This document shows positions 5,525-34,227 of a DNA stretch of 34,227 nt, one piece after another. The first letter of the stretch is position 1, and every line of letters begins with the position of its first letter. Both the position numbers and the translations under genes were made by a program. This DNA is from Nitrospirae bacterium RIFCSPLOWO2_02_FULL_62_14 (GTDB taxonomy: Bacteria > Nitrospirota > Nitrospiria > Nitrospirales > Nitrospiraceae). Under the pieces are notes generated by a model, which made no database searches, was not told where the DNA came from, and was given only the letters and a program-made list of their open reading frames with translations. Where the stretch lies: the NCBI GenBank assembly GCA_001805245.1, contig MHEU01000023.1:55596-89822 (forward strand), written 5' to 3'.

Positions 5525-6834
5525 TTTGCCCTCCCCTTCCCGGTTCCAAACACGCGACGGTAAATCGTGTCCACATGGCGCAAATAATACCGGGGATCGA
5601 AACAGACCTGGATTTGCGCGTGCGTCAGGCGCTTCGTGATGAACGGGTCCTTGCTGACCAGATCGTGAAAACCGGACCGGCCCTTCCACGCAGACATGGC
5701 GCAGCGTTGCACGGCCTCGTAGGCCTCCTTGCGCTGCGCACCCTTGTCGATCAGCGCGAGCAGGAGCCGCTGCGAATAGACCAGCCCTCCGGTCATCTCG
5801 AGATTCTGTTTCATCCGCTGCGGATAGACGATGAGGTTGCGGACAAGATCGGTGATCCGCACCAGCATGTAATCGATCAGGATCGTGCTGTCCGGCATGA
5901 TCACGCGCTCGACGGAGGAATGGCTGATGTCCCGTTCATGCCAGAGCGCCACGCTCTCCATCGCGGCCAGGCTGTTCGCCCGGACGACACGCGCCAGGCC
6001 GCAGAGATTTTCCGATGCGATCGGATTGCGCTTGTGCGGCATGGCCGAGGATCCCTTCTGCCCTTCCGAGAAGTATTCCTCCGCTTCCAGCACTTCGGTG
6101 CGCTGCAAATGCCGGATTTCCGTCGCGAACTTTTCGATGCTCGCCGCGAGCAGCGCCAGCGCAGACGCATAGGCCGCATGGCGGTCCCGCTGAACGATCT
6201 GATTCGACACCGGGTCGGTCTGCAGTCCGAGTTTTTTGCAGACATACTCCTCGACTTCGGGACCCGAATGCGCGAAGGTGCCCATCGCGCCGGACAGCTT
6301 GCCGATGGCGATTTCCTTGCGGACGATCCGCAGCCGGTCCCGGTGACGCCTGGCTTCCTCGTACCAGATGGCCAGCTTGAAGCCGAACGATATCGGCTCG
6401 CCATGCATGCCGTGCGAACGGCCGACCATGATCGTGTCGCGGTGCTCGAACGCGCGCTTCTTGAGCACCGAGAGCAGCACTTCCATGTCGAGCAGAATCA
6501 GGTCCAGCGCCTCGCCCATCTGGACGGCCAGCGAGGTATCCACGATGTCGGAGGAGGTCAGGCCCGCATGCAGGTACCGCACGTCCTTGCCGACCGGTCT
6601 GGCGAGGGATTCGAGGAACGCGATGACGTCGTGCTTGGTGACTTGCTCGATGGCGGCGATGCGGTCCGGATCAATCTTCGCCTTGCGGCGGATTTTGGAG
6701 GCGACTCCGCGCGGGACCCGCCCGGCCTTTTCGAGCGCTTCGCAGGCGAGCAGTTCAACCTCGAGCCAGATCTCGTATTTTCGTTTGAGGTCCCAGACGG
6801 CCTTCATCCGAGGCAGTGTGTAGCGCTCGATCAC
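5521..6834 (-). CDS. purB: Adenylosuccinate lyase PurB
   Basis: Removes fumarate from SAICAR and from adenylosuccinate, in purine and AMP synthesis. 437 residues, the usual length for the short type. The superfamily signature SSAMPHKRNP is at 262-271, the catalytic His lies in GRSHGMHG (His141), and TSSDIVDT is near residue 93. The ATG overlaps the nusB stop by 4 bases and the stop overlaps the purC GTG, so nusB-purB-purC are translationally linked. Confidence 0.97.
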   Translation of the reverse strand: MIERYTLPRMKAVWDLKRKYEIWLEVELLACEALEKAGRVPRGVASKIRRKAKIDPDRIAAIEQVTKHDVIAFLESLARPVGKDVRYLHAGLTSSDIVDTSLAVQMGEALDLILLDMEVLLSVLKKRAFEHRDTIMVGRSHGMHGEPISFGFKLAIWYEEARRHRDRLRIVRKEIAIGKLSGAMGTFAHSGPEVEEYVCKKLGLQTDPVSNQIVQRDRHAAYASALALLAASIEKFATEIRHLQRTEVLEAEEYFSEGQKGSSAMPHKRNPIASENLCGLARVVRANSLAAMESVALWHERDISHSSVERVIMPDSTILIDYMLVRITDLVRNLIVYPQRMKQNLEMTGGLVYSQRLLLALIDKGAQRKEAYEAVQRCAMSAWKGRSGFHDLVSKDPFITKRLTHAQIQVCFDPRYYLRHVDTIYRRVFGTGKGRAK

Positions 6835-7274
6835 TTCCCTGCCTCCGTCAGTTCCGCCCGTTTATCCGCCAGCCGCGGATCTTCTTTGAGCACCTTGTCG
6901 AGGATGCCGTTGACGAACCGCTTGGTTTCGTCGTCGGCGAATTGCTTGGCCAGCTCGATCGCTTCGTTCACGGTCACCTTCGCCGGTACATCCGGCAGCC
7001 AGAGCAATTCATACAGGCCCATGCGGAGGATGTTGCGGTCCACGATGGGCATGCGCTCAATAGTCCAATTGGCGGCCAGCTTGCCGATGAGCGCGTCGAG
7101 TTCGTCGTGGCGCGCCATCACCCCTTCGACGATCTGCTCGGCAAACTCGCGCACGTCGGGCGCAGTGGGATGCTGAGTCCAATAGTCCGCCAGCCAATGT
7201 TCCGTGGTCCGGTGAATGTCCCACTGAAAGAGGAGTTGCAGCGCACAGACCCGTGATTGGCGGCGAATACCCAT
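6831..7274 (-). CDS. nusB: Transcription antitermination factor NusB
   Basis: RNA-binding factor that with NusE (S10) assembles the rRNA antitermination complex. 147 residues, all helical. Typical segments are MGIRRQSRVCALQLLFQWD at the N-terminus, PIVDRNILRMGLYELLW, and VTVNEAIELAKQFADDETKRFVNGILDKV at the C-terminus. ribH-nusB adjacency is common in bacteria; the continuation into pur genes is less so. The spacer after ribH is 28 bases. Confidence 0.95.
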   Translation of the reverse strand: MGIRRQSRVCALQLLFQWDIHRTTEHWLADYWTQHPTAPDVREFAEQIVEGVMARHDELDALIGKLAANWTIERMPIVDRNILRMGLYELLWLPDVPAKVTVNEAIELAKQFADDETKRFVNGILDKVLKEDPRLADKRAELTEAGK

Positions 7275-15471: not shown

Positions 15472-15479
15472 GGCTCGGC

Positions 15480-15485
15480 ATTATA
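15480..15485 (-). promoter_or_regulatory. Minus-strand -10 box of the glnE half gene
   Basis: TATAAT reads on the minus strand at 15485-15480, eight bases before the ATG (15471). The -35 position (ATGAAT at 15508-15503) matches TTGACA only at TGA and falls within the terminal inverted repeat of the adjacent element. Confidence 0.45.
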
Positions 15486-15562
15486 CCGGTGCAGCCCGCA
15501 TTATTCATGGGGGTTCGTGACGAAACCGCTGAGACGCCGTGCGAGACGGGCGCGTGGAGCCT

Positions 15563-15593
15563 GGGGACTGGCTCCGCCGTTTGCGGCGGTGCC
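15563..15593. repeat. REP-like hairpin
   Basis: GGGGAC followed by the stem GGCTCCGCCG (15570-15579), loop TTTG, and CGGCGGTGCC (15584-15593), pairing 9 of 10. It shares the GGGGACTGGC head with the elements at 15892-15925 and 19643-19761. Confidence 0.7.
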
Positions 15594-15822
15594 TTGTATC
15601 TTAGTTCGGTGTTGGTTCACGATATGTCTTCAGGCAACCCAGACGTGACAGACCGATGGTGCCGAGGTCTTCAAAGACCGTGGGACAGCGCGGGTCATCA
15701 CGTCTACATTCTGAATAAGCCCGAACAGTTGCGTGGGCCATTGAGCCCGCATCGCAAGGCTGGGACACAGAATTGGGGAGCCTGGTTCTCTGGTCCGTCA
15801 GTTGTGGCATGCGTGCCTCTGA

Positions 15823-15846
15823 GCACGCAGGGGCGCCCCTGCGTGC
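15823..15846. repeat. Perfect 24-base palindrome
   Basis: The half GCACGCAGGGGC is followed at once by its exact reverse complement, with no loop. It lies inside the inverted-repeat-bounded segment, next to a short TTGACAGTCAA palindrome. It could be a cruciform-prone site or an element end. Confidence 0.75.
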
Positions 15847-15891
15847 TTGACAGTCAAGACAGTTGCTGTCCCCTTGCACGTGGCGCAGAAC

Positions 15892-15925
15892 GGGGACAGG
15901 CGCCAGGAAGAAGGGCGCCAGTCCC
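15892..15925. repeat. REP-like inverted pair
   Basis: GGGACAGGCGCC (15893-15904) and GGCGCCAGTCCC (15914-15925) pair at 11 of 12 positions around a 9-base loop. The heads GGGAC(A/T)GGC are the same as in the other REP-like elements of the window. Confidence 0.7.
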
Positions 15926-16199
15926 AGCAGGCTGTTGACCGACCGAGCAGCGAGCCCGCCATCCCTTGTTTGGCGTGTACCGCGCGCTTTTTATCGTCGT
16001 ATCGAAATGAATGCGCGCGGATAAAACCCTCAAGTGCTTTCTTTCTGAAGTTACGAGCGGAGAGGTCCTTTGCCTCCAGTGGGCTTAGATTCTGCCGCGT
16101 GCAACTGCGGTCAGCGTGTCGCAGCGGCGTATCGGCGGTTGCAGTAGAAGCCGTCATGAATAATGCGGGCTCACCTCGTACAATCACGCACGCTTTCGC

Positions 16200-16205
16200 T
16201 ATACT
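16200..16205 (+). promoter_or_regulatory. -10 box of the ACT-GlnE gene, predicting leaderless mRNA
   Basis: TATACT lies six bases before the ATG at 16212. Transcription starting seven bases after the box would begin on the A of the start codon. No Shine-Dalgarno sequence is present. The -35 position (CGTACA, 17-base spacing) is weak. Confidence 0.45.
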
Positions 16206-16211
16206 GGCGCC

Positions 16212-18473
16212 ATGGACCAGCAGGCGATACAGCGCGACGCCATCCTGAACAATCTTCTGGCGTCGGCCCCGGACCTTGCGCCGGACGTGGTGCGCGACTT
16301 CCTGTCCCGCATGGACGAGGAATACTTCCAACGGTTTCAGCCGGCCGACATCATCCGGCATCTCCAACTCGTCGAGCGCCTGACGCCCGATCATCCCTGC
16401 CACGTGTCCGTGACGGAACACGACGGCGGATGGTTGCTGGTCATCGTGGCCTACGACTATTTTTCAGAGTTCGCGGCCATCGCCGGTCTCCTCTCCAGCC
16501 ATCGCCTGGATATCCGCGAGGGCGCGCTCTACACCTACACGGATGCATCGGGCCAGGCCGGCCCGCGCCCCGCCGCTCCCGGAAGACGCGCCCCGACCCG
16601 TCCCGGCCTGTCACGGAAGAAAATCGTGGATGTGTTCCGTGTCCGTCCGCTCCCCGGCTCGACGTTCGGCCCTACGGAGCAGCGCGCGCTGGCCGGCGAG
16701 CTCGAGCAGGTCATCCGCCTGCTGGATGCCAGGCAATTTACCGATGCGCGCCGGTTCGTCAACCGCCGGCTGGTCGAAACGCTCGGCAAGGCGCGCGGAG
16801 CATTCCACGGCCTCCTGGCGCCCGTCCAGATCCGGTTCGATAACCAGGCCTCACCGACCAGCACCGCCATGGACATCCGTTCGACCGACACGCCGGCGTT
16901 CCTCTATGCCTTCGCCCTCGCGCTGTCGATGCGCGGGCTCTATATTCACCAGGCCCGCTTCGAGCATGTCGGGGATGAGTTGCACGACCGCTTTTTCGTC
17001 CGCGGCCGGCACGGCAGGAAAATCGAGAGCAAGGCCGAGCAGCAAGAACTGCTCGTCACCGCCACGCTCGCCAAACAGTTCACGCAGCACCTGATCTGGG
17101 CTCCCGATCCGACCAAGGCCCTGGAATCCTTCGATCAGTTCCTGGACCAGCTGTTCCGCGACGCCCGCGGAAAAAAAACGCTGGCCTTCCTTTCGAAAAA
17201 ATCGACGCTGCCGCTCCTCGCCCGCCTGCTCGGCACCAGCGAGTACCTCTGGGAGGATTTTGTCCGCCGGCAGCATGCCAACCTACTGCCGATCCTGGAT
17301 GCCCACCGCGACACGCCGCTCGTCCGCACCCGGCAGCAATTGGCGCTCGCGCTCCGCCGGCAACTGGCCCGCGCCGGCACCGACGAGCGGCGCCGGGCCA
17401 TCCTCAATCAGTTCAAGGATCAGGAACTGTTCCGCATCGACATGAAACATCTGTTGGACCAGAAGACCACGCTGCCCGATTTTTCACGCGCGCTGACCAA
17501 TCTGGCGGAAGCCATCCTGGAGCAGGCCGTGGCGGACTGCGCCGCCAGTCTCGTGCGCCGGCATGGCGTGCCCCGGCTCGACCGCCGGACGCCCTGCCCC
17601 TTTGCCGTCTTTGCCATGGGAAAGTTCGGCGGCCGGGAACTGGGGTACGCCTCCGACATCGAAGTCCTCTTCGTCTTCGGAGGACCCGGACGGACGTCAG
17701 GGCGGCAGCCTCTCGATCATAGCGAGTACTACGAACGCCTGGTCCATATGCTGCTGCAATGGATCGAAGCGAAGCAGGAGGGAATTTTCCGCCTGGATGT
17801 GAGACTGCGTCCGCATGGCGGGAAAGGCCTCCTGGCCAATACCCTGGATGAACTGCGCCGCTATTACAGCCCGTCCGGGCTTGCCGCCCCGTTTGAACGA
17901 CAGGCGTTGACCAAGCTCCGGTTCGTGTGCGGGGACCGTACGTTAGGCGGGCAGGTGGAGGCGCATCGCGATGCCTTCGTCTACAGCGGCCAGCCGTGGG
18001 ACCTGGCCGCCTCCCTCTCGTTGCGGCGGCAACAGATCAAGGAACTGGTGGAGCCCGGACAGATCAACGTGAAATACAGTCCCGGCGGCATCGTGGACAT
18101 CGAATACACTGCCCAATACCTGCAGGTATTGCATGGCCATGCCCTCCCCGATCTTCGCACCCCCAACACGCTGGAGGCAGTGGCGGCGGCGGAGCGTCAT
18201 CGGCTCCTGACGGCCCGCGAGGCCGGGGCTCTGCACGATGCCTATCTGTTCCTGCGAAGCCTGATCGACGCGCTGCGGATCGTCCGCGGCCATGCCAAGG
18301 CCCTGGTGCTCCCCGCCATCGGATCGGATGAGTTTATTTTTCTGGCCAGACGGATGGGCTACACGAAAGACGACTGGCAGGGAGAAGCGAACACGCTCGC
18401 CGGCGACGTGACGCGGCACATGGAGGAAGCTCGCACGATTTACGCAAACCGGTTCGCCCGGGACAACGGCTAG
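16212..18473 (+). CDS. ACT-ACT-GlnE-type nucleotidyltransferase fusion protein
   Basis: 753 residues. About 65-110 (HVSVTEHDGG, then LLVIVAYDYFSEFAAIAGLL) and about 205-270 (QIRFDNQASP, then DIRSTDTPAFLYAFALALSM, ending in FFVRGRHGRKI) resemble ACT domains; the second is very like the C-terminal ACT of GlnD. From about 440 the protein is GlnE-like: GKFGGRELGYASDIEVLFVF (471-489) with Asp482 and Glu484 where GlnE has DxD, Asp529 in FRLDVRLRPHG, then a helical PII-uridylyltransferase-type domain (GGIVDIEYTAQYLQ). Joining GlnD-type sensors to a GlnE-type catalyst suggests the adenylylating half of a split GlnE system that senses glutamine directly. That role is inferred. It is divergent from the other half gene. 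Confidence 0.75.
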   Translation: MDQQAIQRDAILNNLLASAPDLAPDVVRDFLSRMDEEYFQRFQPADIIRHLQLVERLTPDHPCHVSVTEHDGGWLLVIVAYDYFSEFAAIAGLLSSHRLDIREGALYTYTDASGQAGPRPAAPGRRAPTRPGLSRKKIVDVFRVRPLPGSTFGPTEQRALAGELEQVIRLLDARQFTDARRFVNRRLVETLGKARGAFHGLLAPVQIRFDNQASPTSTAMDIRSTDTPAFLYAFALALSMRGLYIHQARFEHVGDELHDRFFVRGRHGRKIESKAEQQELLVTATLAKQFTQHLIWAPDPTKALESFDQFLDQLFRDARGKKTLAFLSKKSTLPLLARLLGTSEYLWEDFVRRQHANLLPILDAHRDTPLVRTRQQLALALRRQLARAGTDERRRAILNQFKDQELFRIDMKHLLDQKTTLPDFSRALTNLAEAILEQAVADCAASLVRRHGVPRLDRRTPCPFAVFAMGKFGGRELGYASDIEVLFVFGGPGRTSGRQPLDHSEYYERLVHMLLQWIEAKQEGIFRLDVRLRPHGGKGLLANTLDELRRYYSPSGLAAPFERQALTKLRFVCGDRTLGGQVEAHRDAFVYSGQPWDLAASLSLRRQQIKELVEPGQINVKYSPGGIVDIEYTAQYLQVLHGHALPDLRTPNTLEAVAAAERHRLLTAREAGALHDAYLFLRSLIDALRIVRGHAKALVLPAIGSDEFIFLARRMGYTKDDWQGEANTLAGDVTRHMEEARTIYANRFARDNG

Positions 18474-22856: not shown

Positions 22857-23999
22857 TCACGAGTAGCCCCTCTCCCCGTGCTGCGTCAGATCAAGCCCCA
22901 CAACCTCCGCCTCTTCGTCCACGCGCGGCGGCAGGACCAGCGTGAGACCTTTTACCAGGAGAAAGGTCACAGTCCCGGCAAAGGCCCAGACAGAAACCAC
23001 CGCCACCATCTGCGCGAAAAACTGGTAGGGATAGCCGTAGAACAGGCCGTCGCTTCCTTCCGGATTGACGGTCGTGGAGGCAAAGAGCCCGGTGGCGATC
23101 ATGCCCCACGTGCCGCCGACCCCGTGCATGCCGAACACATCGAGCGAATCGTCATATCCCAGAATGAGTTTCACGTAGTTCACCACCATGTAGCAGAGCC
23201 CTCCGGCCCCGATCCCGATGACGACCGCCGAGAAAGGGCTGACATAGCCGGCCGCAGGAGTAATCGCCACGAGCCCCGCCACGGCTCCGCTGATCGTTCC
23301 CAAGGCCGTGGGTTTGTCCCGTTGCAGCCATTCGGCCGCCATCCACGTTAATGCCGAGGCTGCGGCGGACATCTGGATCGCCACAAAGGCGCCGGTCACA
23401 GTGGTCATCGGCGCCAGCGCGGCGCCCGCTGCAAATCCGAACCAGCCGACCCACATCAACCCTGCTCCGCAGAACGACAGGGGCAGATGGTTCGGCGTCA
23501 TCTCGACCCGTCCGTACCCTTTGCGCGGCCCGATCATGACCGCCGCCACCAGCGCCGAGACCCCGGCGCTCACATGGACCACTGCGCCGCCGGCAAAATC
23601 GAGTACACCCAGATTCGCGAGCCATCCGCCTCCCCAGAGCCAGCGCGCAATCGGTCCGTAGACCAGCGCAGTCCACAGGAGCCCGAAGACGAGGAAGAAC
23701 AGCACCTTCATGCGTTCGACCAGCGCCCCCGTCACCAGCGCCAGCGCGAGCGCAGCGGTCATCGTCTGGTAGGCCAGTTGCGGCGCCGGACTTCCCAGCC
23801 TCCTGCCGAACGTCAGCGTATCCCCGAAACACAGCCATGCCAGCGAGACCACGGCGAGCGCCAGCAACGGCATGCCCATGGTGTTGAGCACGTTTTTCTT
23901 CCGCACCATCCCGCCGTAAAATAACGCCACGCCCGGCAGCGTCAACATGACCAGCACGGTGGAAACCAGCAGCCACAGTGTTTGATCGGACCGGAGCAT
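22857..23999 (-). CDS. Divergent ammonium transporter-family protein (Amt)
   Basis: 380 residues of the Amt/Mep/Rh family: FYGGMVRKKNVL at the N-terminus, DFAGGAVVHVSAG with the first pore His (His142), FGMHGVGG with the second (His292), and the cytosolic tail GLDLTQHGERGYS. Compared with E. coli AmtB and the neighbouring Amt, both periplasmic Phe-gate positions are altered (Tyr77 and Thr81 for Phe103 and Phe107), and the recruitment residues Asn216 and Ser219 are alanines (Ala190, Ala193). It may have altered selectivity or a sensing role. It follows the next Amt gene by 13 bases. Confidence 0.9.
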   Translation of the reverse strand: MLRSDQTLWLLVSTVLVMLTLPGVALFYGGMVRKKNVLNTMGMPLLALAVVSLAWLCFGDTLTFGRRLGSPAPQLAYQTMTAALALALVTGALVERMKVLFFLVFGLLWTALVYGPIARWLWGGGWLANLGVLDFAGGAVVHVSAGVSALVAAVMIGPRKGYGRVEMTPNHLPLSFCGAGLMWVGWFGFAAGAALAPMTTVTGAFVAIQMSAAASALTWMAAEWLQRDKPTALGTISGAVAGLVAITPAAGYVSPFSAVVIGIGAGGLCYMVVNYVKLILGYDDSLDVFGMHGVGGTWGMIATGLFASTTVNPEGSDGLFYGYPYQFFAQMVAVVSVWAFAGTVTFLLVKGLTLVLPPRVDEEAEVVGLDLTQHGERGYS

Positions 24000-24012
24000 C
24001 AGACCGTTCCGA

Positions 24013-25251
24013 TCACGAATACGCTCTCTCGTTATGTTGGGTGAGATCCAGGCCCATCCGCTCCTCCTCCGGCGTTATCCGCAACCCGACGAGGCGATTC
24101 ACGAGCTTCAGGATGAGATAGGTTCCGAGGCCGGCAAACAGCGTCACCGCCAGCGTGGCCAGAATCTGCACCCCGAAGAACCCGGCATTGCCGTGCAGCA
24201 AGCCGTCGGCTCCTCCGGGGTTGACCGCTGTGGAGGCCAGCACGCCCGTCGCCAGGACACCGAACACGCCTCCGACCCCGTGGATGCCGACGACGTCCAG
24301 CGAATCGTCATAGCCGAACTTCCCCTTTTTCATGATCGCCAGGTAGGACAGCCCGCCGGCCGCCAATCCGATCAGCATCGCGGAAAATGGCCCGACGTAC
24401 CCGGCTCCCGGCGTGACGGTCGCCAGCCCGGCTACAGCTCCGCTGGCGATGCCGAGCACCGTCGGCGTCCCGCGATGCACCCATTCGACCGCCATCCAGG
24501 CCAAGGCCGCGGTTGCAGCAGCCGTATGAGTGGACACAAACGCGACGACCGCGATCGAATTGGCTCCCAATGCACTGCCCCCATTGAACCCGAACCACCC
24601 CACCCAGAGCAGGCCGGTCCCCAGGAGCACCATGGGAAGATTGTGGGGCGCCATGTATTCGGTGCCGTACCCCTGGCGCTTGCCGAGCACATAGGCACAG
24701 ACCAGGGCGCTGATTCCGGAACTGATGTGCACGACCGCTCCGCCGGCAAAATCCAACGCGCCCAGCTTGCCCAGCCATCCCCCTCCCCAGAGCCAATGGG
24801 CGACCGGGCAGTAGATGACGACCGACCAGAGGACCGAGAAGAGGAGCAGGGCGCTGAACTTCATCCGCTCGGCAAAGGCGCCGGTGATCAGGGCCGGCGT
24901 GATCGCCGCGAACATCATCTGAAAGATCATGAATGCCTGGTGTGGGATCGTCGGCCCGTATGCCGGATGCGGTGACAACCCGACCTCGCGGAGCCCGGCC
25001 CATTCCAGCCCGCCGATGAGGCCCCACTTGTCCGGTCCGAACGCCAGACTGTAACCAAACAGGATCCAGAGCAGACTCACCACGCACAGGATAACAAAAC
25101 TGTGCATGATGGTACCGAGTACGTTCTTGCTGCGGACCAGCCCGCCGTAAAAGAGGGCCAGCCCCGGCACGATCATCGCCAGCACCAGGGCCGAGGCGAT
25201 CAACACCCAGGCCGTATCGGCGGGATCAATTTGAGGCACTATCGGCGTCAT
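24013..25251 (-). CDS. amt: Ammonium transporter Amt (canonical pore)
   Basis: 412 residues with 11-12 membrane helices. The AmtB features are all present: Phe110 and Phe114 (gate), twin pore histidines His175 and His324, GWFGFNGGSA with the Asn and Ser of the recruitment site, Asp167, and tail GLDLTQHNERAYS. GGGAG lies seven bases before the ATG. It is cotranscribed with the divergent Amt downstream and lies 123 bases after cyanase. It imports ammonium, which could also recapture ammonia from cyanate breakdown; PII from the glnB gene in this window is a likely regulator. Confidence 0.96.
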   Translation of the reverse strand: MTPIVPQIDPADTAWVLIASALVLAMIVPGLALFYGGLVRSKNVLGTIMHSFVILCVVSLLWILFGYSLAFGPDKWGLIGGLEWAGLREVGLSPHPAYGPTIPHQAFMIFQMMFAAITPALITGAFAERMKFSALLLFSVLWSVVIYCPVAHWLWGGGWLGKLGALDFAGGAVVHISSGISALVCAYVLGKRQGYGTEYMAPHNLPMVLLGTGLLWVGWFGFNGGSALGANSIAVVAFVSTHTAAATAALAWMAVEWVHRGTPTVLGIASGAVAGLATVTPGAGYVGPFSAMLIGLAAGGLSYLAIMKKGKFGYDDSLDVVGIHGVGGVFGVLATGVLASTAVNPGGADGLLHGNAGFFGVQILATLAVTLFAGLGTYLILKLVNRLVGLRITPEEERMGLDLTQHNERAYS

Positions 25252-25346
25252 CGCATGCTCCCTGCGGGTGAACGTTGCCGGCCCTTTGCGGTGACGGCCC
25301 AGCCGGTATCGTCAATGCCGGTCGGCCACAACTCTAACCGCGTTTT

Positions 25347-25361
25347 ATGCAATATTTGCAT
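25347..25361. promoter_or_regulatory. Palindrome upstream of the amt pair (possible operator)
   Basis: ATGCAATATTTGCAT has 6-base arms with a 3-base centre and lies in the 123-base gap between cynS and amt. The surrounding 30 bases are AT-rich compared with the neighbourhood. No sigma-54 GG-N10-GC pair is visible. Confidence 0.35.
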
Positions 25362-25374
25362 CACATACCAGCAG

Positions 25375-25827
25375 CTACTTGGTTTGCTCAATGTGCGGAA
25401 GGAATTTGCCGTTCCACGTCATGACGACACGATCCTCCCCCTGGCTTCCCTTCGTCTTGTGGATCGTGAACCGGAAATCGATCGCGGACATGATCCCGTC
25501 GCCGAATTGCTCCTGGATGATGGCCAGGATCCCGTCGCCATAATGAGCGCAGACCTCCGTCATCCGGTACACGTGAGGCTCCTGAAGGATGGCCGGATCA
25601 AAGGAACGAACCGGGGGCTTTCTCATTTCTTTCAGGAGATCCTCGGTGAGACCCGGCAGCAGCTTGACCAGTTTCTCCTCGGTCCCCTTCTTCAGTTGCG
25701 CCTGCCGGCGCAGGATCTGGGCGACATAGACATTGCACAGGCCCAGCGCATCGGCCAGTTCGTCATACGTCTTTCCGGATTTTTCCTTCAGTGCCAGCAC
25801 CTTCGCCACGACTTCCTTCTTGTCCAT
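25375..25827 (-). CDS. cynS: Cyanase (cyanate hydratase) CynS
   Basis: Converts cyanate and bicarbonate to ammonia and CO2. 150 residues from ATG 25827, close to the E. coli length of 156. AGGAGGG lies 6 bases upstream; a GTG at 25830 is the alternative start. The N-terminal domain is a helix-turn-helix-like dimer fold (DELADALGLCNVYVAQILRR). The C-terminal cyanase domain carries the catalytic Arg88, Glu91 and Ser114 in EPHVYRMTEV and DGIMSAIDF. It follows the transporter genes by 186 bases on the same strand. Confidence 0.97.
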   Translation of the reverse strand: MDKKEVVAKVLALKEKSGKTYDELADALGLCNVYVAQILRRQAQLKKGTEEKLVKLLPGLTEDLLKEMRKPPVRSFDPAILQEPHVYRMTEVCAHYGDGILAIIQEQFGDGIMSAIDFRFTIHKTKGSQGEDRVVMTWNGKFLPHIEQTK

Positions 25828-26013
25828 CACAATCCCTCCTGTGATTTAGAGCCGGCCGGCCACAACAACCGGCACATGCTCGCTGGTTATGTCCCTTGGA
25901 CCTATCGACTCTTCGCACACGGGCTGCCTGCAACCGCTCGTGCACATCCTGTCATCCATCTCCGTACCCATATCTGCTCCTTATGATTGCGCGTGCGGTG
26001 CATGTGGCATGCG

Positions 26014-26880
26014 TCATCGCAAGATGAGCGATTCCTTCTCGAAATCCACGACTCTGGGACTCTTGCCATCCGACGCGCCGGAGGCCACCTCCACATCGTC
26101 ATGCTTGGCGTGCTCAACCAGGAAATGAATGATGTGGTTCCTGATCTTGTAATAATGGGGATGCTCGATGACCGTGACGCGAGCTCGGGGCCGTGGTATC
26201 GTCACGATGACGTTTTCGGCGATTCGCGCTCCCGGGCCGTTGGTCATGAGCAGAATTCTATCGGACAGCAAGATCGCCTCATCCACGTCGTGCGTGACCA
26301 TGAAGACCGTGTTGCGCGTCGCATTCCACATCTGAATCAGCTCTTCCTGAATCACGCCGCGCGTAAGCGCATCGATCTGCGCAAACGGCTCGTCCAACAG
26401 CAGTACTTTCGGCTCGATGGCGAAGGCTCTGGCCAACCCGACCCGTTGTTTCATGCCGCCCGACAGCGCCGTCGGCCGTTTAGTCTCGGCGCCCTTGAGC
26501 CCGACCAGCGCGATGTATTTGTGCACGTGCGCGGCGATCTTCTCGCGGTCCCAGTCCGGATAGGCCGCCCGTACCGCCAACCGGATATTGTCAAAGACCG
26601 TCATCCAAGGCATCAAGGCAAAGTTCTGGAAGACCACCATCCGGTCCAGTCCGGGCCCGGCGGCTTCGCGCCCGTTCAAGATCACGCCGCCTTCCGTGGC
26701 CGATTCTAGCCCCGCGATGATGTTCAGAAGCGTACTCTTGCCGCACCCGGAGTGCCCGATTGTCGTGACGAACTCGCCCTTCTCGATTTTGATCGTCACG
26801 TCCTTGAAGATGCAGACGGGACTCCCGCCCGAGTGGCTCGGAAAGAATTTCGTCATATGATCGATCTGCAAAAAAGCCAT
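26014..26880 (-). CDS. cynD: ABC transporter ATPase, nitrate/cyanate type (CynD/NrtD)
   Basis: 288 residues. Walker A GHSGCGKST (42-50), signature LSGGM (139-143), Walker B VLLLDEP (159-165), and the switch His197. It belongs to the NrtD/CynD/TauB-like group energising uptake of small anions. AGGAG lies before the ATG, inside the end of the permease gene, with 3 bases between the genes. The assignment to cyanate rather than nitrate rests on cynS downstream. Confidence 0.85.
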   Translation of the reverse strand: MAFLQIDHMTKFFPSHSGGSPVCIFKDVTIKIEKGEFVTTIGHSGCGKSTLLNIIAGLESATEGGVILNGREAAGPGLDRMVVFQNFALMPWMTVFDNIRLAVRAAYPDWDREKIAAHVHKYIALVGLKGAETKRPTALSGGMKQRVGLARAFAIEPKVLLLDEPFAQIDALTRGVIQEELIQMWNATRNTVFMVTHDVDEAILLSDRILLMTNGPGARIAENVIVTIPRPRARVTVIEHPHYYKIRNHIIHFLVEHAKHDDVEVASGASDGKSPRVVDFEKESLILR

Positions 26881-26883
26881 CGG

Positions 26884-27765
26884 TTACTCCTGATAGGTGA
26901 CAAGACCTGCCAGCTTGTTGAATCCCGAGTCCAGAATGACTCCGACCACTCCCACGACCAGGATGGCGAAAATCACGCCGGCAATATCAAGATTGTTCCA
27001 TTCGATCCAACTGAGATAGCCCACACCCAACTCGCCCAGCAACATCTCGGCGGGCACCACGGCCACGAGCGCGCTCCCGAATGAGATCCGCAATCCGTTC
27101 ACAATCGTCGGCGCGGCCCCCGGAAGAATGACTTTGTACAGCCGCTTGAACCACGATAGCTGGAGAATGGCCGCCACGTGCAGATACTCCTTGCGCAGGG
27201 ACGTGACCCCAAACGCCGTGGTTGCCAGGGTCGGCCATATCGCCGCCATGAACACGACCAGCACCGCCGTCCATTTCGGATCCTTGACGGTATAGAGCAG
27301 CAGCGGCATCCACGCCAGGGGCGAGATCGGCTTGAGAATCTGGATGAACGGGTTGACCGCCTGGAACAGCGCTTTATTCAGCCCCAGCAACACACCGAGC
27401 ATGATCGCGACCACCGACGCCGCGAGAAAGCCCGCCGCAAAGCGTGACACCGTGTAGACCACGAGATACGCGATCCCATGGTCGTTGGTCCCCTTTTTCA
27501 CAAACGCCTCGGCGAGCTCCATTCGGGCTTTATCGAACACCATCAGCGGTCCCGGCACGCCTTTGACTTTCTCCTTTTCGGGATTCCAGGCGTATCCCCC
27601 TTCCGGCGTCCGGACGATGTCCCCGTTGAATTCCATCAACTGCAACTGCTCGTCCGTCTTTCCTTTCGGGTCAAATGCCGGACGCAACGTGAACAGATGC
27701 CAGCCCGTCAGAAAGACGGCGAGCAGAAACACGGAGATCATCCACGGTTGACCTTGAGTGCTCAT
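26884..27765 (-). CDS. cynB: ABC transporter permease, nitrate/cyanate type (CynB/NrtB)
   Basis: 293 residues. An N-terminal membrane anchor (about 9-27) is followed by a long periplasmic stretch (about 28-95) and a BPD_transp-type domain with about five helices. The EAA-like loop reads ATTAFGVTSLRKEYLHVAAIL. ILKPISPLAWMPLLLY is typical of the NrtB/CynB/SsuC group. It forms the membrane channel with the ATPase. 24 bases separate it from the binding-protein gene. Confidence 0.85.
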   Translation of the reverse strand: MSTQGQPWMISVFLLAVFLTGWHLFTLRPAFDPKGKTDEQLQLMEFNGDIVRTPEGGYAWNPEKEKVKGVPGPLMVFDKARMELAEAFVKKGTNDHGIAYLVVYTVSRFAAGFLAASVVAIMLGVLLGLNKALFQAVNPFIQILKPISPLAWMPLLLYTVKDPKWTAVLVVFMAAIWPTLATTAFGVTSLRKEYLHVAAILQLSWFKRLYKVILPGAAPTIVNGLRISFGSALVAVVPAEMLLGELGVGYLSWIEWNNLDIAGVIFAILVVGVVGVILDSGFNKLAGLVTYQE

Positions 27766-27789
27766 CTATTCCCTCTCTCGTCGGCCCGA

Positions 27790-29112
27790 TCACGCCATGC
27801 TGTGAATCTTGAAGCTCTTCACATAGGCCTCTGGCTGCTCAGGATCGAACGCCTTGCCCATGATCACGTGCTTGGCCATCGTGCTTTTATGGGTTGGATA
27901 GCCCAGTTCCTTGGCAATCCGGTCGCAATCGGCGGCAAGGTAGACCTGTTCGGCGACCGCTTTGTAGTTCACGTCCTGCTTGAGATGCCCCCAGCGCTTC
28001 ATCTGCGTCAAAATCCAGATGGCCATCGAGTGCCAGGGGTAGGGATCAAAGTCGATCCGGTCAGGCACCTTCTGTATTTTTCCGAGCCCGTCGGCATAGG
28101 TGCCGGTGAGCACCTGTTCTAACACCGTGACCGGCTGATTGAGATAGTTCGTCGGTGCAATGGCAGTCGCGATCTCTTTGCGGTGCGCCGGATTGGACGC
28201 GTAATGCGTGGCGTCCACAATAGCCCGGAAGAGCGCTATGAACGTATTGGGATGCTGGGTTGCAAACGCTTTTGAGACGGTGAACGCGCAACAGGGGTGG
28301 CGGTCCCAGATCTCCTTCGACAGCTTGTAGATGAACCCCACATTTTCATACACGGCACGCTGATTGAACGGGTCCGGCGCCAGGTAGCCGTCGACATTCC
28401 CGGCCTTCAGGTTCGCCACCATCTCGGGCGGCGGCACCACGCGAATTTGGACATCCTTATCGGGATGGACGCCGCCATCGGCAAGGAAATAGCGCAGCAG
28501 ATAATTGTGCATGGAGTAATCGAACGGGACGCAGAACCGGAAGCCCTTCATGTCGGCGGCCGTTTTCACGTCCTTGTGCTTGATGTGCAGCGTGATCGCC
28601 TGCCCGTTGATGTTTTCCACCGCCGGCATATAGAACGGCGTCGGCACCGAACCGGCGCCCAGCGTGATCGCCAGCGGCATCGGCGTCAGCATATGCGCGG
28701 CATCCACTTCCTTGTTGATCGCCCAGTCCCGGACCATCGCCCAACCAGCCGCGCGCTTCACCGTTGCATTCAATCCGTGCTTCTTGTAGAACCCCAGCGG
28801 CTCCCCCATGATGATCGGGGTCGCGCAGGTGATCGGAATAAATCCTATGCTGAGATCCTTTTTCTCGATCTTGCCGACCGGATCGGCCGCCAGGGCCGTC
28901 AGCGTGTTCAACGGCAGGACCTCGCTGATGAGCGCCGCCAGGGCGGCACTCCCGAGCCCGGCCAGGAGTTGACGACGGGTTGGTCCGGCCGCCGTCAGAA
29001 CCGATTCGACCACGGTTCGCTCGATCGCGCGCGCGAAATACTCCTCGGAGGACAACTCGCCAGTAACACTGACATCGACGGGGCCTGATTTTTCCTCGTG
29101 TGATCGTGACAT
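27790..29112 (-). CDS. cynA: ABC transporter substrate-binding protein, nitrate/cyanate type (CynA/NrtA)
   Basis: 440 residues from ATG 29112, with GGGAGG six bases upstream. An N-terminal cytoplasmic stretch of about 40 residues precedes a twin-arginine signal (TRRQLLAGLGSAALAALI; Arg46-Arg47), then a Nrt-type anion-binding domain (SIGFIPITCATPIIMGEPLGFYKKHGL). The Tat signal suggests export in folded form. The family binds nitrate, nitrite, bicarbonate or cyanate. Cyanate is favoured by the order cynA-cynB-cynD-cynS, as in cyanobacterial operons. No lipobox is seen. Confidence 0.8.
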   Translation of the reverse strand: MSRSHEEKSGPVDVSVTGELSSEEYFARAIERTVVESVLTAAGPTRRQLLAGLGSAALAALISEVLPLNTLTALAADPVGKIEKKDLSIGFIPITCATPIIMGEPLGFYKKHGLNATVKRAAGWAMVRDWAINKEVDAAHMLTPMPLAITLGAGSVPTPFYMPAVENINGQAITLHIKHKDVKTAADMKGFRFCVPFDYSMHNYLLRYFLADGGVHPDKDVQIRVVPPPEMVANLKAGNVDGYLAPDPFNQRAVYENVGFIYKLSKEIWDRHPCCAFTVSKAFATQHPNTFIALFRAIVDATHYASNPAHRKEIATAIAPTNYLNQPVTVLEQVLTGTYADGLGKIQKVPDRIDFDPYPWHSMAIWILTQMKRWGHLKQDVNYKAVAEQVYLAADCDRIAKELGYPTHKSTMAKHVIMGKAFDPEQPEAYVKSFKIHSMA

Positions 29113-29140
29113 CGGATACCTCCCAGTTTGAACGGGACAC

Positions 29141-29207
29141 AATAAAAAAGGCGCCAACGTCTGCCAGGGAAGTCCCCTCTGGCTCCCCTGACAGCACTGG
29201 CGCCTTT
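29141..29207 (-). terminator. Long two-stem hairpin with T-run: glnA terminator or cynA leader attenuator
   Basis: On the minus strand the outer stem AAAGGCGCCA (29207-29198) pairs perfectly with TGGCGCCTTT (29156-29147), and an inner stem of 8 of 9 pairs (29194-29186 with 29169-29161) stacks inside. A run of T follows at once (29149-29144). It lies after glnA and 28 bases before the cynA ribosome site, so it may end glnA transcription or act as a conditional terminator for the cyanate genes. Confidence 0.8.
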
Positions 29208-29305
29208 GCCAGTCCTCGCGGCCTGACGTCGTTGTCCGGCCTTCTTCAGCTGTCAGCTTTCAGCCATCAGCGCTCCCCTGAGCCCTGATAGCTGACCGCT
29301 ATTAT

Positions 29306-30715
29306 TTACACGTCGTAATACAGGAAAAACTCGTACGGATGCGGGCGGAGCCGGAGCGGATCCACTTCGCGGGTCCGCTTGTAGCCGATCCACGCATCGA
29401 TCAAGTCTTCCGTAAACACGCCGCCCTTGAGCAGGAACTGATGGTCCTTCTCGAGATGCTTGAGCGCGTCGTCCAGGCTGCCCGGCATGGTCGGGACCCT
29501 GGCCGCTTCGCGCGCCTCCAGGTCGTAGAGGTCCTTCTCCATCGGCTCTCCCGGATCGATCTTGTTCTCGATCCCGTCCAGCCCGGCCATCAACATGGCG
29601 GCAAAGGCCAGGTAGGGATTCGTCGAAGGATCAGGGAACCGGACTTCGATCCGCTTCGCTTTCGGATTGGGCGAATACATCGGAATCCGGATGCCGGCCG
29701 AGCGGTTCCGGCTCGAATAGGCCAGCATGACCGGCGCTTCGAATCCGGGCGTCAGCCGCTTGTAGGAGTTGACCGTCGGGTTCGTGATCGCCGCCAGCGC
29801 CGGCGCATGTTTCAGGATGCCGCCGATGTAATGCAGGCACAACTGCGACACTCCGGCATATTCCTTACCGGCGAACAGTGGCTTCCCCTCTTTCCAGATG
29901 CTCTGGTGCGTGTGCATTCCAGACCCGTTGTCGCCGAACAATGGTTTGGGCATAAAGGTCACGGTCTTGTGGTGTCGCCTGGCCACATTCTTGACGATGT
30001 ACTTGTACATCATCATCTTGTCGGCCATGACGACCAGCGAATCGAACCGCAGATCTATTTCAGCCTGACCGGCCGTCGCCACCTCGTGATGGTGCTTCTC
30101 CACCGGAATGCCGACTTTTTGCATTTCCAGGATCATCTCGCTGCGGATGTCCTGCTGCGTGTCGATCGGAGGCACCGGAAAGTAGCCTTCCTTGTGCCGG
30201 ATCTTGTTGCCGAGATTCACGCCCTCCTGGCCGGCATTCCAGACGCCTTCCTCGGAGTCGAGGAAGTAGTAGCCGCTATGGCTCGTCTGGTCAAAACGCG
30301 CGTGGTCGAAAATGAAAAACTCGGCCTCAGGCCCCCAGTAGGAGATATCGCCGATCTTGGTGCTCTTGAGATGCTTCTCCGCCTTCTGCGCGATGAACCG
30401 CGGATCGCGCTCGTAGATTTCGCGCGTGATGGGATCCATGACGTTGCCGACCAGGCTGAGCGTCGGCACCGCCGTGAAGGGATCCATGCAGGCGGTGGCC
30501 GGGTCCGGCACCACCAGCATGTCGCTGTTGTTGATGGCCTTCCATCCCCGGATGGACGAGCCGTCCAGGCCCGAACCGTCCTTGAACGTGCCTTCGTTGA
30601 GTTCCTCGATTGGAATCGTGAAATGCTGCCAGGTGCCGGGCAAATCCACGAATTTCAGGTCGACGACCTGAACCCTGTTCTTCTTTGCATATTCGAGTAC
30701 TTCACGCGGAGTCAT
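29306..30715 (-). CDS. glnA: Glutamine synthetase type I GlnA
   Basis: ATP-dependent amidation of glutamate with ammonium. I start at ATG 30715, which has GGAGG six bases upstream; an ATG six bases earlier touches the ribosome site. This gives 469 residues, the E. coli length, and places the adenylylation tyrosine in DLYDLEARE exactly at 397. Active-site marks are [19 protein letters not shown] and [13 protein letters not shown]. It follows glnD by 26 bases, so amt3-glnB-glnD-glnA is likely one operon. Tyr397 together with the GlnE-type genes at 13753-18473 implies control by adenylylation. Confidence 0.97.
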
Positions 30716-30741
30716 CCACATCCTCCTTTCAAACCACTACC

Positions 30742-33420
30742 CTAGAATGTTGATAATGAAACACCGGGCACGGTCCCCGTGTCTACTCTCATCCGTCCCA
30801 ACACAAACCGGTCGATTTCACCCTTGAGTGTCGCCCTGATCGCCTCCAGCCGGGCCGGATCGGTGACTTTTCCCCCCTTCGAATCCGTGACATAAAACAC
30901 ATCCGCCACCTGGTCCAGCCGCGTCGAGATGCGTGCCGCCTGCACGGACAGCCCAAGCGTGAAAATGGTGCGCGTAATGACGTAGAGCAGCCCCTGCCGG
31001 TCCTCCGCAAAGACATCAATGATCGTGGCACGGTCGGACGTCTCATTGTCCACCTGAACGTCCGTCGACTGCCGGCCTGTCGGAAGCCGCCGCTGGTGGT
31101 CCAGACGGCGATAGCGACCCATGAGCTGCTCGACGGTTTCCTCGCCAAGCAACACGCTCCGTAGGGCCCGCCCCACGTCCTCCCGCCGTTCGGCCGGCGG
31201 GACGCCGGCGAAATCCGGATCGTTCACCTGAAACGTATCCACGATCACGTCATCACGGCGGGTGACGATCTGGGCATCGAGAACATGGAGGCCCATGGCC
31301 GCCAGCACGCCGGCAATCTTGGAGAAGATGCCCGGGATCACGTCATTGCGCGTAATGACCGCATAATCGCAGGTTCCAAGCGCCTCGTTAAACGCCGACT
31401 CCACCTTCACGTCACGGGGCGAAAGACGGTGGATGGCCGTCAGGTGCCCGGCAATGCGTTCCGGCGCCGTTCCGTGCACGTACCGCAAGGGAAAATGCTC
31501 CAACTGCGCCTGCACCCAGCCCGCATCCGGCTGTTCCGGCATCCGCGCGGCCACCTCGCGGACCAGCTGCGCGATCCGTTCACTTCCCCACGACGCATCC
31601 TTCTCGCCCGACACTTCCGGCATCGTGCGCAGATACAACTCAATGAGCAGGGATTCCTTCCACTTGGTCAGGACTCCGGGCCCCACGGCCGCGATATCGG
31701 CTGCCGTCAATACCAGAAACTTTCGTAACACCGCCGGCGTGCCGACCTCGCGCGCAAACGTCAGCAGCACATTGCCATCGTAGGGGTCCCGCCGGAACGC
31801 CGTATGCGCCATGAGCAAATGTTTATGGACGAGAAAGACCAGCGCCCTGGTGTCCTGCTCGTCGAACCCGAGGCGGGCGGCCGTCTCCTCCGCGAGACGC
31901 TTTCCCACTTCGCTGTGGTCTTCCTCCCTGCCCTTGCCCAGATCGTGCAGCAGGACCGCCAGATGGAGCAGGTCCTTGCGGGGAATTTCCCGGTAGACTT
32001 GGCCGATCATACCTGATTCCTGCTCGAACGCTTCCGCCCTGGCCACGGCAAGGAGGCTGTGCTCGTCCACCGTGTACTTGTGATACTGGTTGAACTGCAT
32101 CAGTCCGCGCACCGTGGCAAAGACCGGGATCAACCGCTCCAGCAGATGCGCGCGGTGCATGGCATCCAGCGTGCTGGCGGTCCGCGGACCGGCCAGAATC
32201 TTCACAAACCTGGCGCAGACGTCGGAATTGTCAAAGACGCTCGCCGGCAGGCTTTCGACATGCCGGTGGATGTCCTCGATCAACTCCGGATCAATTTCAA
32301 GCGCCCTCGCCCGCGCGACATCGAAGAGCTTGAGCAGCAGCCCCGGGCTGTCGAGGACGCGCGTGCGTTCTTCGACGGGCACGGTGAGCACGCTGCCCTG
32401 TGCCACAAAGTGCCGGTCGATCCGCGGGGCGGGCAGCAGCCGCGTCAGCCGGCTCCAGAGCGAGACCGTCCGGCACCGTTTGACGAACCGCATCATCCGC
32501 TCGTTCAATCCCATCGTATGCCGGTAATAGACCTGCATGAACTGCTCGACCGCCAGCAGATGCGGGCGATCCTGATATCCGAACCGCTGCGCGAGCCACA
32601 TCTGCTCGTCGAACGTGAGAATTTCCTGGGCCGACCCTGCATGCACGTGCATCAGCGCCCGCACGCGCCAGAGAAAGTCCCGGGCCTCGGTCAGGGCCCG
32701 ATAATCCTGCCGGGACAGAATGCCGCGGTCAGCCAGCTCACGAATGGTCGCCGCACGGTAGCGGGCCATCCCGATCCACTGCAGCACATGCAGATCACGC
32801 AACCCACCCTTGCTCTTCTTCACATTGGGCTCGAGCAGATACACCGTTTCCCCGAACTTCTCATACTCGCGACGGCGCACCTCCAGCTTCTGATCGATGA
32901 AACGGTCCACGCCCTTGCTGACGATCTGCCGCGTATAGCGGTCGTGAAATTCCTGAAAGAGCGTCGCGCTGCCGGCCAGGAACCTGGCTTCCATCATCGA
33001 CGTGCGGATCGTTAAATCCTCCTCCGCCAGCTCCAGGCACTCCTGAATCGTCCGGACGCTGTGGCCGACCTGGAATCCGGCATCCCATAGGGGATGCAAC
33101 ACGGTTTTGACCAGTTCCGGAATCATCGCCTTGGCGTCGGCCTTGAACAACACCATGAGATCGATGTCCGAGTGGGGCGCCAGTTCGCGGCGTCCGTAGC
33201 CTCCCAGCGCCACCAAACAGCAGGACCGGCTGGCCGCGATCTCCGCCGCCTCGCCCAGCTGTCGCAGGCCGTTCCGGTACCGTCCGATGATCAAGCCATC
33301 GACCAGTTCCGTGAGCGCATCCATCACCTCGGCGCCGGATGCCCCCTCCAGCAACCGCTGCTGGATGACCTCCCGCCGCTCGGTCAGCGCCGAACTCTGT
33401 ACGTCCATAGTGTCCCGCAT
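30742..33420 (-). CDS. glnD: PII uridylyltransferase / uridylyl-removing enzyme GlnD
   Basis: Glutamine sensor that adds or removes UMP on PII. 892 residues, full length. Nucleotidyltransferase motif GGYGRRELAPHSDIDLMV (73-90; Asp85, Asp87). HD hydrolase region with His454 (DEHSLLAVA) and His492-Asp493 (LLHDLGKG). Two C-terminal ACT domains at about 690-750 and 805-870 (AVITRNDVIPGIFSKI; DVFAEDRQGLLYVITRTIF). glnB starts 5 bases upstream of it. A second ATG five codons in is possible. Confidence 0.97.
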   Translation of the reverse strand: MRDTMDVQSSALTERREVIQQRLLEGASGAEVMDALTELVDGLIIGRYRNGLRQLGEAAEIAASRSCCLVALGGYGRRELAPHSDIDLMVLFKADAKAMIPELVKTVLHPLWDAGFQVGHSVRTIQECLELAEEDLTIRTSMMEARFLAGSATLFQEFHDRYTRQIVSKGVDRFIDQKLEVRRREYEKFGETVYLLEPNVKKSKGGLRDLHVLQWIGMARYRAATIRELADRGILSRQDYRALTEARDFLWRVRALMHVHAGSAQEILTFDEQMWLAQRFGYQDRPHLLAVEQFMQVYYRHTMGLNERMMRFVKRCRTVSLWSRLTRLLPAPRIDRHFVAQGSVLTVPVEERTRVLDSPGLLLKLFDVARARALEIDPELIEDIHRHVESLPASVFDNSDVCARFVKILAGPRTASTLDAMHRAHLLERLIPVFATVRGLMQFNQYHKYTVDEHSLLAVARAEAFEQESGMIGQVYREIPRKDLLHLAVLLHDLGKGREEDHSEVGKRLAEETAARLGFDEQDTRALVFLVHKHLLMAHTAFRRDPYDGNVLLTFAREVGTPAVLRKFLVLTAADIAAVGPGVLTKWKESLLIELYLRTMPEVSGEKDASWGSERIAQLVREVAARMPEQPDAGWVQAQLEHFPLRYVHGTAPERIAGHLTAIHRLSPRDVKVESAFNEALGTCDYAVITRNDVIPGIFSKIAGVLAAMGLHVLDAQIVTRRDDVIVDTFQVNDPDFAGVPPAERREDVGRALRSVLLGEETVEQLMGRYRRLDHQRRLPTGRQSTDVQVDNETSDRATIIDVFAEDRQGLLYVITRTIFTLGLSVQAARISTRLDQVADVFYVTDSKGGKVTDPARLEAIRATLKGEIDRFVLGRMRVDTGTVPGVSLSTF

Positions 33421-33425
33421 GGTCC

Positions 33426-33791
<366 letters not shown>

Positions 33792-34227
33792 TTATGAGTA
33801 TGCGCGTTCGTTATGCTGGCTCAGATCCAGCCCTGTGGCTTCTTCCTCGGGCGACACACGCAGTTTGATCATGTTGTCGAGCACTTTCAGAATGATGTAG
33901 GTGCCGACGAACGCAAAGATCACCGCGACTACGGCCGCGACTGCCTGCATGCCCAACTGGCCGGGGTTTCCGAACAACAGGCCGTTCGGACCGGCAGGAT
34001 TGACGGCTGTGGAGGCCAGCAGGCCCACGCCCAGCATGCCGACCAGACCTCCCACGCCGTGCAATCCGACGACATCGAGTGTGTCATCATAGCCAATCTT
34101 CCCCTTCCACACAATGGCCAGGTACGCGAGGGATCCCGCCGCCCCGCCGATCAGGATGGCGGACACCGGCCCGATAAACCCTGCCCCGGCCGTGACGGAC
34201 GCCATGCCGGCCACCGCACCGCTGGCC
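33792..34227 (-). CDS. amt: Ammonium transporter Amt, C-terminal part (cut by window edge)
   Basis: About 144 residues of the C-terminal third of an Amt protein, open to the window end. They include VVGLHGVGGLVG with the second pore histidine, DSG-like KIGYDDTLDV, and the cytosolic tail GLDLSQHNERAYS. 27 bases separate its stop from glnB. The amt-glnB pairing is the classical arrangement in which PII closes the channel when nitrogen is plentiful. It is the third Amt gene of the window. Confidence 0.95.
   Translation of the reverse strand, partial: ASGAVAGMASVTAGAGFIGPVSAILIGGAAGSLAYLAIVWKGKIGYDDTLDVVGLHGVGGLVGMLGVGLLASTAVNPAGPNGLLFGNPGQLGMQAVAAVVAVIFAFVGTYIILKVLDNMIKLRVSPEEEATGLDLSQHNERAYS

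Follow-up and report, generated by a model that had tools for sequence, protein, structure and literature searches.

The nitrogen-related locus described here encodes a GlnE system divided between two proteins, and we propose, with a probability of about 60%, that it performs a split cycle of glutamine synthetase (GS) adenylylation, in which AMP is removed and added by separate proteins and amino-acid input enters through a pair of ACT domains carried by the adding unit. The window, by which we mean the whole analysed stretch of 34,227 bp, contains a gene for a 572-aa protein and a gene for a 753-aa protein, located head to head on opposite strands (Table 1). The initial annotation described both open reading frames correctly, but the span it gave for the system, positions 15472–18473, takes in the spacer and the 753-aa gene but not the 572-aa gene.

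Table 1. Features of the split GlnE system and of the associated nitrogen genes in the window.
Feature	Position	Strand	Description
One-unit GlnE, 572 aa	13753–15471	-	Proposed GS-deadenylylating unit
GlnE nucleotidyltransferase domain of the 572-aa protein			Residues 120–379; SDVD motif, third carboxylate D327
Helical GlnD_UR_UTase domain of the 572-aa protein			Residues 405–549
ACT-ACT-GlnE fusion, 753 aa	16212–18473	+	Proposed GS-adenylylating unit and amino-acid sensor
Region before ACT1	16275–16400	+	Residues ~22–63; homologous to the stretch preceding ACT1 in GlnD
ACT1	16398–16727	+	Residues ~63–172; variable low-confidence loop 112–132; signature A-[YF]-D-Y-F-[SA]-E-F
ACT2	16824–17093	+	Residues ~205–294; signature D-[TS]-P-[AG]-F-L-[YF]
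GlnE nucleotidyltransferase domain of the 753-aa protein	17217–17960	+	Residues 336–583; GKFGGRELGYASDIE; D482, E484 and third carboxylate D529 invariant
Helical GlnD_UR_UTase domain of the 753-aa protein	18060–18446	+	Residues 617–745
glnA	29306–30721	-	Type I glutamine synthetase, presumed target
glnD	30742–33420	-	Complete; nucleotidyltransferase (SDID), helical domain, HD, two ACT
PII (GlnB/GlnK)	33426–33788	-	T-loop TYRGTEY

One Pfam GlnE domain and one helical GlnD_UR_UTase domain were identified in each protein above the Pfam cut-offs, with E-values of 1.3e-66 and 1.4e-29, respectively, for the 572-aa protein, and 8.3e-44 and 2.2e-15 for the 753-aa protein. Each of them therefore has one catalytic unit instead of the two per chain found in GlnE, and both score below the NCBIfam equivalog cut-offs (e.g., 367 and 230 bits for PRK11072, versus a cut-off of 487). 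When the genome (2.66 Mb, 95% complete) was searched in full with PF03710, three matches were obtained, namely the 572-aa protein, the 753-aa protein, and the nucleotidyltransferase of GlnD; no third GlnE and no single-chain GlnE were found in this assembly. A separate full-length glnE elsewhere in the genome, which had been named as the observation that would speak against a split system, was thus not detected. The window gave no match in Rfam.

The split is not confined to this genome. A scan of genome contigs revealed 80 loci. All of them carry the label Nitrospirota, apart from a single locus that was binned as uncultured Nitrosospira, and they include L045 and L089, from the complete chromosomes of Nitrospira moscoviensis and Candidatus N. 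defluvii, respectively. The two genes are divergent in all 105 loci holding both of them, some of which represent the same genome fetched twice; besides N. moscoviensis and N. defluvii, these loci represent other orders of Nitrospiria. Nine more members, from remoter families of the class and order, have the same split and the same D-x-E motif discussed below. Since it is conserved across the whole class, the observation is not due to chance, and the split together with the ACT fusion is a class-wide trait of Nitrospiria. A frameshifted or fragmented single gene can likewise be ruled out, because the genes are divergent and this arrangement is conserved throughout the class. Among 61 relatives, 47 have both genes, 12 have neither, and two, both fragmented drafts, have only the 572-type gene, so that the two genes seem to be retained or lost as a pair. 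Several Nitrospiria genomes (G008, G026, G035, G037, G043, G045, G046, G053, G293, G325, and others) were found to encode GlnD and neither GlnE unit; these are cases of joint loss of the pair. The absence of glnE has been reported for Nitrospira from the Great Lakes (PMC9239080). Outside the class but within Nitrospirota, all 20 GlnEs that were read are single chains, encoded by open frames of 872–1230 aa, with D-x-D in both halves and no ACT pair. A search of plasmid records with the 753-aa protein returned 30 records, none of which covered 80% of the query, and the listed matches were limited to the GlnE part.

To assign the two proteins to the halves of ordinary GlnE, we compared them with PDB sequences and constructed a tree of 74 catalytic units. 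The best PDB match of the 572-aa protein was 1v4a, which represents the deadenylylating N-terminal half (AT-N) of E. coli GlnE, with 199 bits, followed by 3k7d with 157 bits. For the 753-aa protein the scores were nearly equal, with the C half (3k7d, 111.6 bits) marginally ahead of 1v4a (107.9 bits). On the tree, the 572-type units cluster with the N-terminal halves taken from single-chain GlnEs (support 99). The 753-type units form a long separate branch on the C side of the split between N and C halves; alternative topologies placing them with the 572-type or with the N halves were only marginally rejected (AU p = 0.047 and 0.050). The N domain of GlnE is responsible for deAMPylation and the C domain for AMPylation (PMC12409994). 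Therefore, judging from sequence, the 572-aa protein is most likely the deadenylylase of GS, and the 753-aa protein is most likely the adenylyltransferase acting on the GS tyrosine. The earlier proposal that the two activities reside on separate proteins agrees with this assignment, in which a unit of the AMP-removing type and a unit of the AMP-adding type occur on different chains.

The 753-aa protein differs from the C-terminal half of an ordinary GlnE at its junction. The first 65 or so residues of the C unit (529–594 at locus L150; before about residue 505 in E. coli), which lie where GlnE has its central regulatory segment between the units, have no counterpart in it. From our reading of the literature, this absent segment may be the PII-responsive central region. 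The ACT pair occupies the position of the segment joining the halves of ordinary GlnE, and the fusion probably originated when a copy of the GlnD C-terminus was joined to the GlnE C-terminal half as the halves separated.

The evidence for a double ACT module of GlnD type, here located N-terminal to the catalytic unit, comes from both profile and structure comparisons. Single-domain Pfam ACT models remained below their cut-offs on the 753-aa protein, the best being ACT_ACR9_3rd with an E-value of 0.003; this plant ACR9 model matches 23 of 28 members of the ACT-GlnE group. The NCBIfam GlnD model TIGR01693, however, aligned residues 22–280 with positions 615–841 of GlnD at an E-value of 4.9e-23, so that the ACT profile search proposed initially succeeded with the GlnD model and fell short with the single-domain ones. 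HHalign comparison of 21 ACT-GlnE N-termini with 11 GlnD C-termini gave a match of 99.6% (E = 5e-25, 235 columns) spanning the first 285 residues of the 753-aa protein. Because this alignment includes the stretch ahead of ACT1, the ACT pair reads as a transplanted GlnD tail, as far as such profile alignments can indicate. Searched by sequence against PDB, the ACT region gave chance matches only, and for this reason a fold search was used. AlphaFold models of residues 1–298 alone (pLDDT 84, pTM 0.81) and of the whole chain (pLDDT 81.5, pTM 0.76) both contain two beta-alpha-beta-beta-alpha units. In Foldseek, the whole chain matched GlnE structures; the top match of the ACT region was L-GDH180, and ACT-like domains were found as well, for example that of GL3 (TMt 0.73). 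An ACT fold is thus predicted where the initial annotation had placed one, and its description of the larger protein as two ACT-like segments followed by a GlnE-type domain with a D-x-E motif is confirmed.

The loop of ACT2 is close to canonical. The loop of ACT1 is also strongly conserved and differs consistently from the P-G-[IL]-F of GlnD. Since the P-G of GlnD is absent, the ligand could differ from that of GlnD, or ACT1 could have a structural role. For the pair as a whole we consider that it probably provides amino-acid input, with glutamine as the probable ligand.

The metal-binding motifs of the two catalytic units are different. D-x-D, present in the 572-aa protein as SDVDL, was found in 89 of 89 homologues of this type, and the third carboxylate is invariant, so that the smaller protein is indeed a single GlnE-type domain with an intact motif, as had been noted at the outset. 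In the 753-type proteins the motif is D-x-E (SDIEV in the 753-aa protein), fixed in 79 of 79 ACT proteins; the G-X11-D-x-D pattern of GlnE is thus retained by the 572-type only. The replacement of the canonical motif in every ACT protein could mean that the 753-aa protein has little or no catalytic activity and serves as a regulatory partner, the modification reactions of GS being performed by the 572-aa protein. We consider this improbable, because the remaining residues of the active-site motifs, including G470, K471, G473, G474, E476, R531, and R533, are invariant along with the three carboxylates, which makes a dead enzyme unlikely; pseudoenzymes seldom retain all of these residues. Moreover, kanamycin nucleotidyltransferase has the same SDIE string, and by analogy D-x-E need not lower catalysis.

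The presence of a GlnD C-terminus and a GlnE-type catalytic unit in one chain also allows one to suppose that the 753-aa protein, as a hybrid of GlnD and GlnE, adenylylates PII rather than GS; in Corynebacterium glutamicum, PII is adenylylated at Tyr51 (PMC12894286). Nevertheless, a complete GlnD co-occurs with the 753-aa protein, its gene is invariably head to head with that of an N-type GlnE unit where both are present, and GlnE models score far above GlnD nucleotidyltransferase on its catalytic unit, so that we regard modification of PII as quite improbable and GS as the more probable target.

The presumed target is encoded in the same window. The tyrosine in the KDLYDL motif of glnA aligns with the adenylylation-site tyrosine of E. 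coli GS (NLYDLP). This tyrosine is equally conserved in genomes lacking both GlnE proteins, most of which retain it where this part of glnA could be read; therefore, its conservation is only permissive and provides no support for co-evolution. The nitrogen cluster at positions 22857–34226 is located on one strand and comprises an amtB-like gene truncated at the end of the window, PII, glnD, glnA, a nitrate-type ABC transporter (NMT1-like protein, permease, and ATPase), and two amtB genes. Downstream of the ACT-GlnE gene in related Nitrospirales lies glnA-amtB-PII-amtB, encoded on the other strand.

According to the split-cycle model that we favour, the 572-aa protein, of the N-half type, would remove AMP from GS, and the 753-aa protein, of the C-half type, would add AMP to the GS tyrosine. 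Binding of glutamine, or of another amino acid reporting nitrogen sufficiency, to the ACT pair would switch on the adenylylating unit and turn GS down; when the ligand level falls, the separate deadenylylase would restore GS. Since the ACT pair stands at the position of the joining segment, the enzyme itself would sense nitrogen status. Either unit, or both, may still be subject to PII.

The initial annotation went further and suggested that PII is possibly bypassed. This part finds no support, since PII and a complete GlnD are encoded in the same window, the nucleotidyltransferase and HD motifs of GlnD are intact, and four PII-family matches are present in the genome; PII control may therefore persist alongside the ACT input. 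A stricter version of the model, in which the AMP-adding unit reads glutamine or another amino acid through its GlnD-derived ACT domains, the AMP remover is separate, and PII is not needed as a carrier, is accordingly put forward only tentatively. One could also hypothesise the opposite, namely that PII and PII-UMP are the main switch of the split GlnE and that the ACT pair is a scaffold, a dimerisation module, or a PII-docking module and not a sensor. The intact GlnD, the several PII proteins, the proximity of PII to ACT-GlnE in related genomes, and the loss of P-G from the ACT1 loop are all in line with such a role. However, ACT2 keeps D-x-P-[AG]-F-L-Y, the strong conservation of both loops is as expected of a ligand site, and the 753-aa protein is devoid of the segment that joins the halves of single-chain GlnE; we therefore consider control by PII with a non-sensory ACT pair rather unlikely.

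The spacer between the two glnE genes contains, at positions 15480–16184, a multi-copy element of about 700 bp with imperfect terminal inverted repeats of 60 nt, for which 98 matching places, whole or partial, were found in the genome. A 286-bp stretch inside it (15588–15873) occurs near full length and with 98–99% identity at two other places in the genome and partially elsewhere; apparently, it is a second repeat nested in the larger element. In the relative L038, the spacer is only about 60 bp long and contains TATAAT- and TATACT-like boxes 6–10 nt from each start codon. In the genome studied here, the element splits the two promoter-like regions apart, and a sigma-70 promoter scan of the spacer revealed none above the threshold. 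Elsewhere in the window, a 533-aa open reading frame on the forward strand (5575–7176) had no Pfam or NCBIfam match and is perhaps not a real gene.

The literature searched contains the split only as a name and yielded no account of the ACT fusion. A metagenomic table lists "GlnEB" of N. moscoviensis, corresponding to NITMOv2_1289 and NITMOv2_1290 (PMC6131200), and gives no analysis of domains and mentions neither an ACT domain nor D-x-E; GlnEB is very probably the same gene pair, located at L045. Among characterised proteins, GlnD shares the double ACT and the stretch preceding it with the N-terminus of the 753-aa protein. It does not, however, correspond to the fusion, which lacks the GlnD combination of nucleotidyltransferase, HD, and double ACT in one chain: there is no HD domain, the unit that follows the ACT pair, rather than preceding it, is of GlnE type, and the ACT1 loop is altered. 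The plant ACR proteins and the glutamate dehydrogenase L-GDH180 of Mycobacterium likewise have ACT-type modules linked to nitrogen metabolism, but no AMP-transfer domain.

The GS cascade of E. coli is a textbook case of reversible protein modification. E. coli GlnE (b3053; PDB 1v4a and 3k7d) shares the nucleotidyltransferase and helical domains with both proteins, while Nitrospiria have two genes, D-x-E in one of the units, an added ACT pair, and no joining segment in the 753-aa protein. To our knowledge, no ACT domain has been recognised in E. coli GlnE, and the route by which glutamine enters it has not been resolved structurally. The proposed location of the opposing activities on separate proteins, together with a recognisable ACT module, would make each step assayable alone, and bears on the control of nitrogen assimilation in nitrite oxidisers and comammox bacteria, both of which subsist on inorganic nitrogen. 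A direct effect of glutamine on GlnE has a precedent, because the E. coli enzyme is under allosteric control by both glutamine and PII (PMC5448240); the novelty in Nitrospiria lies in the ACT module and the split.
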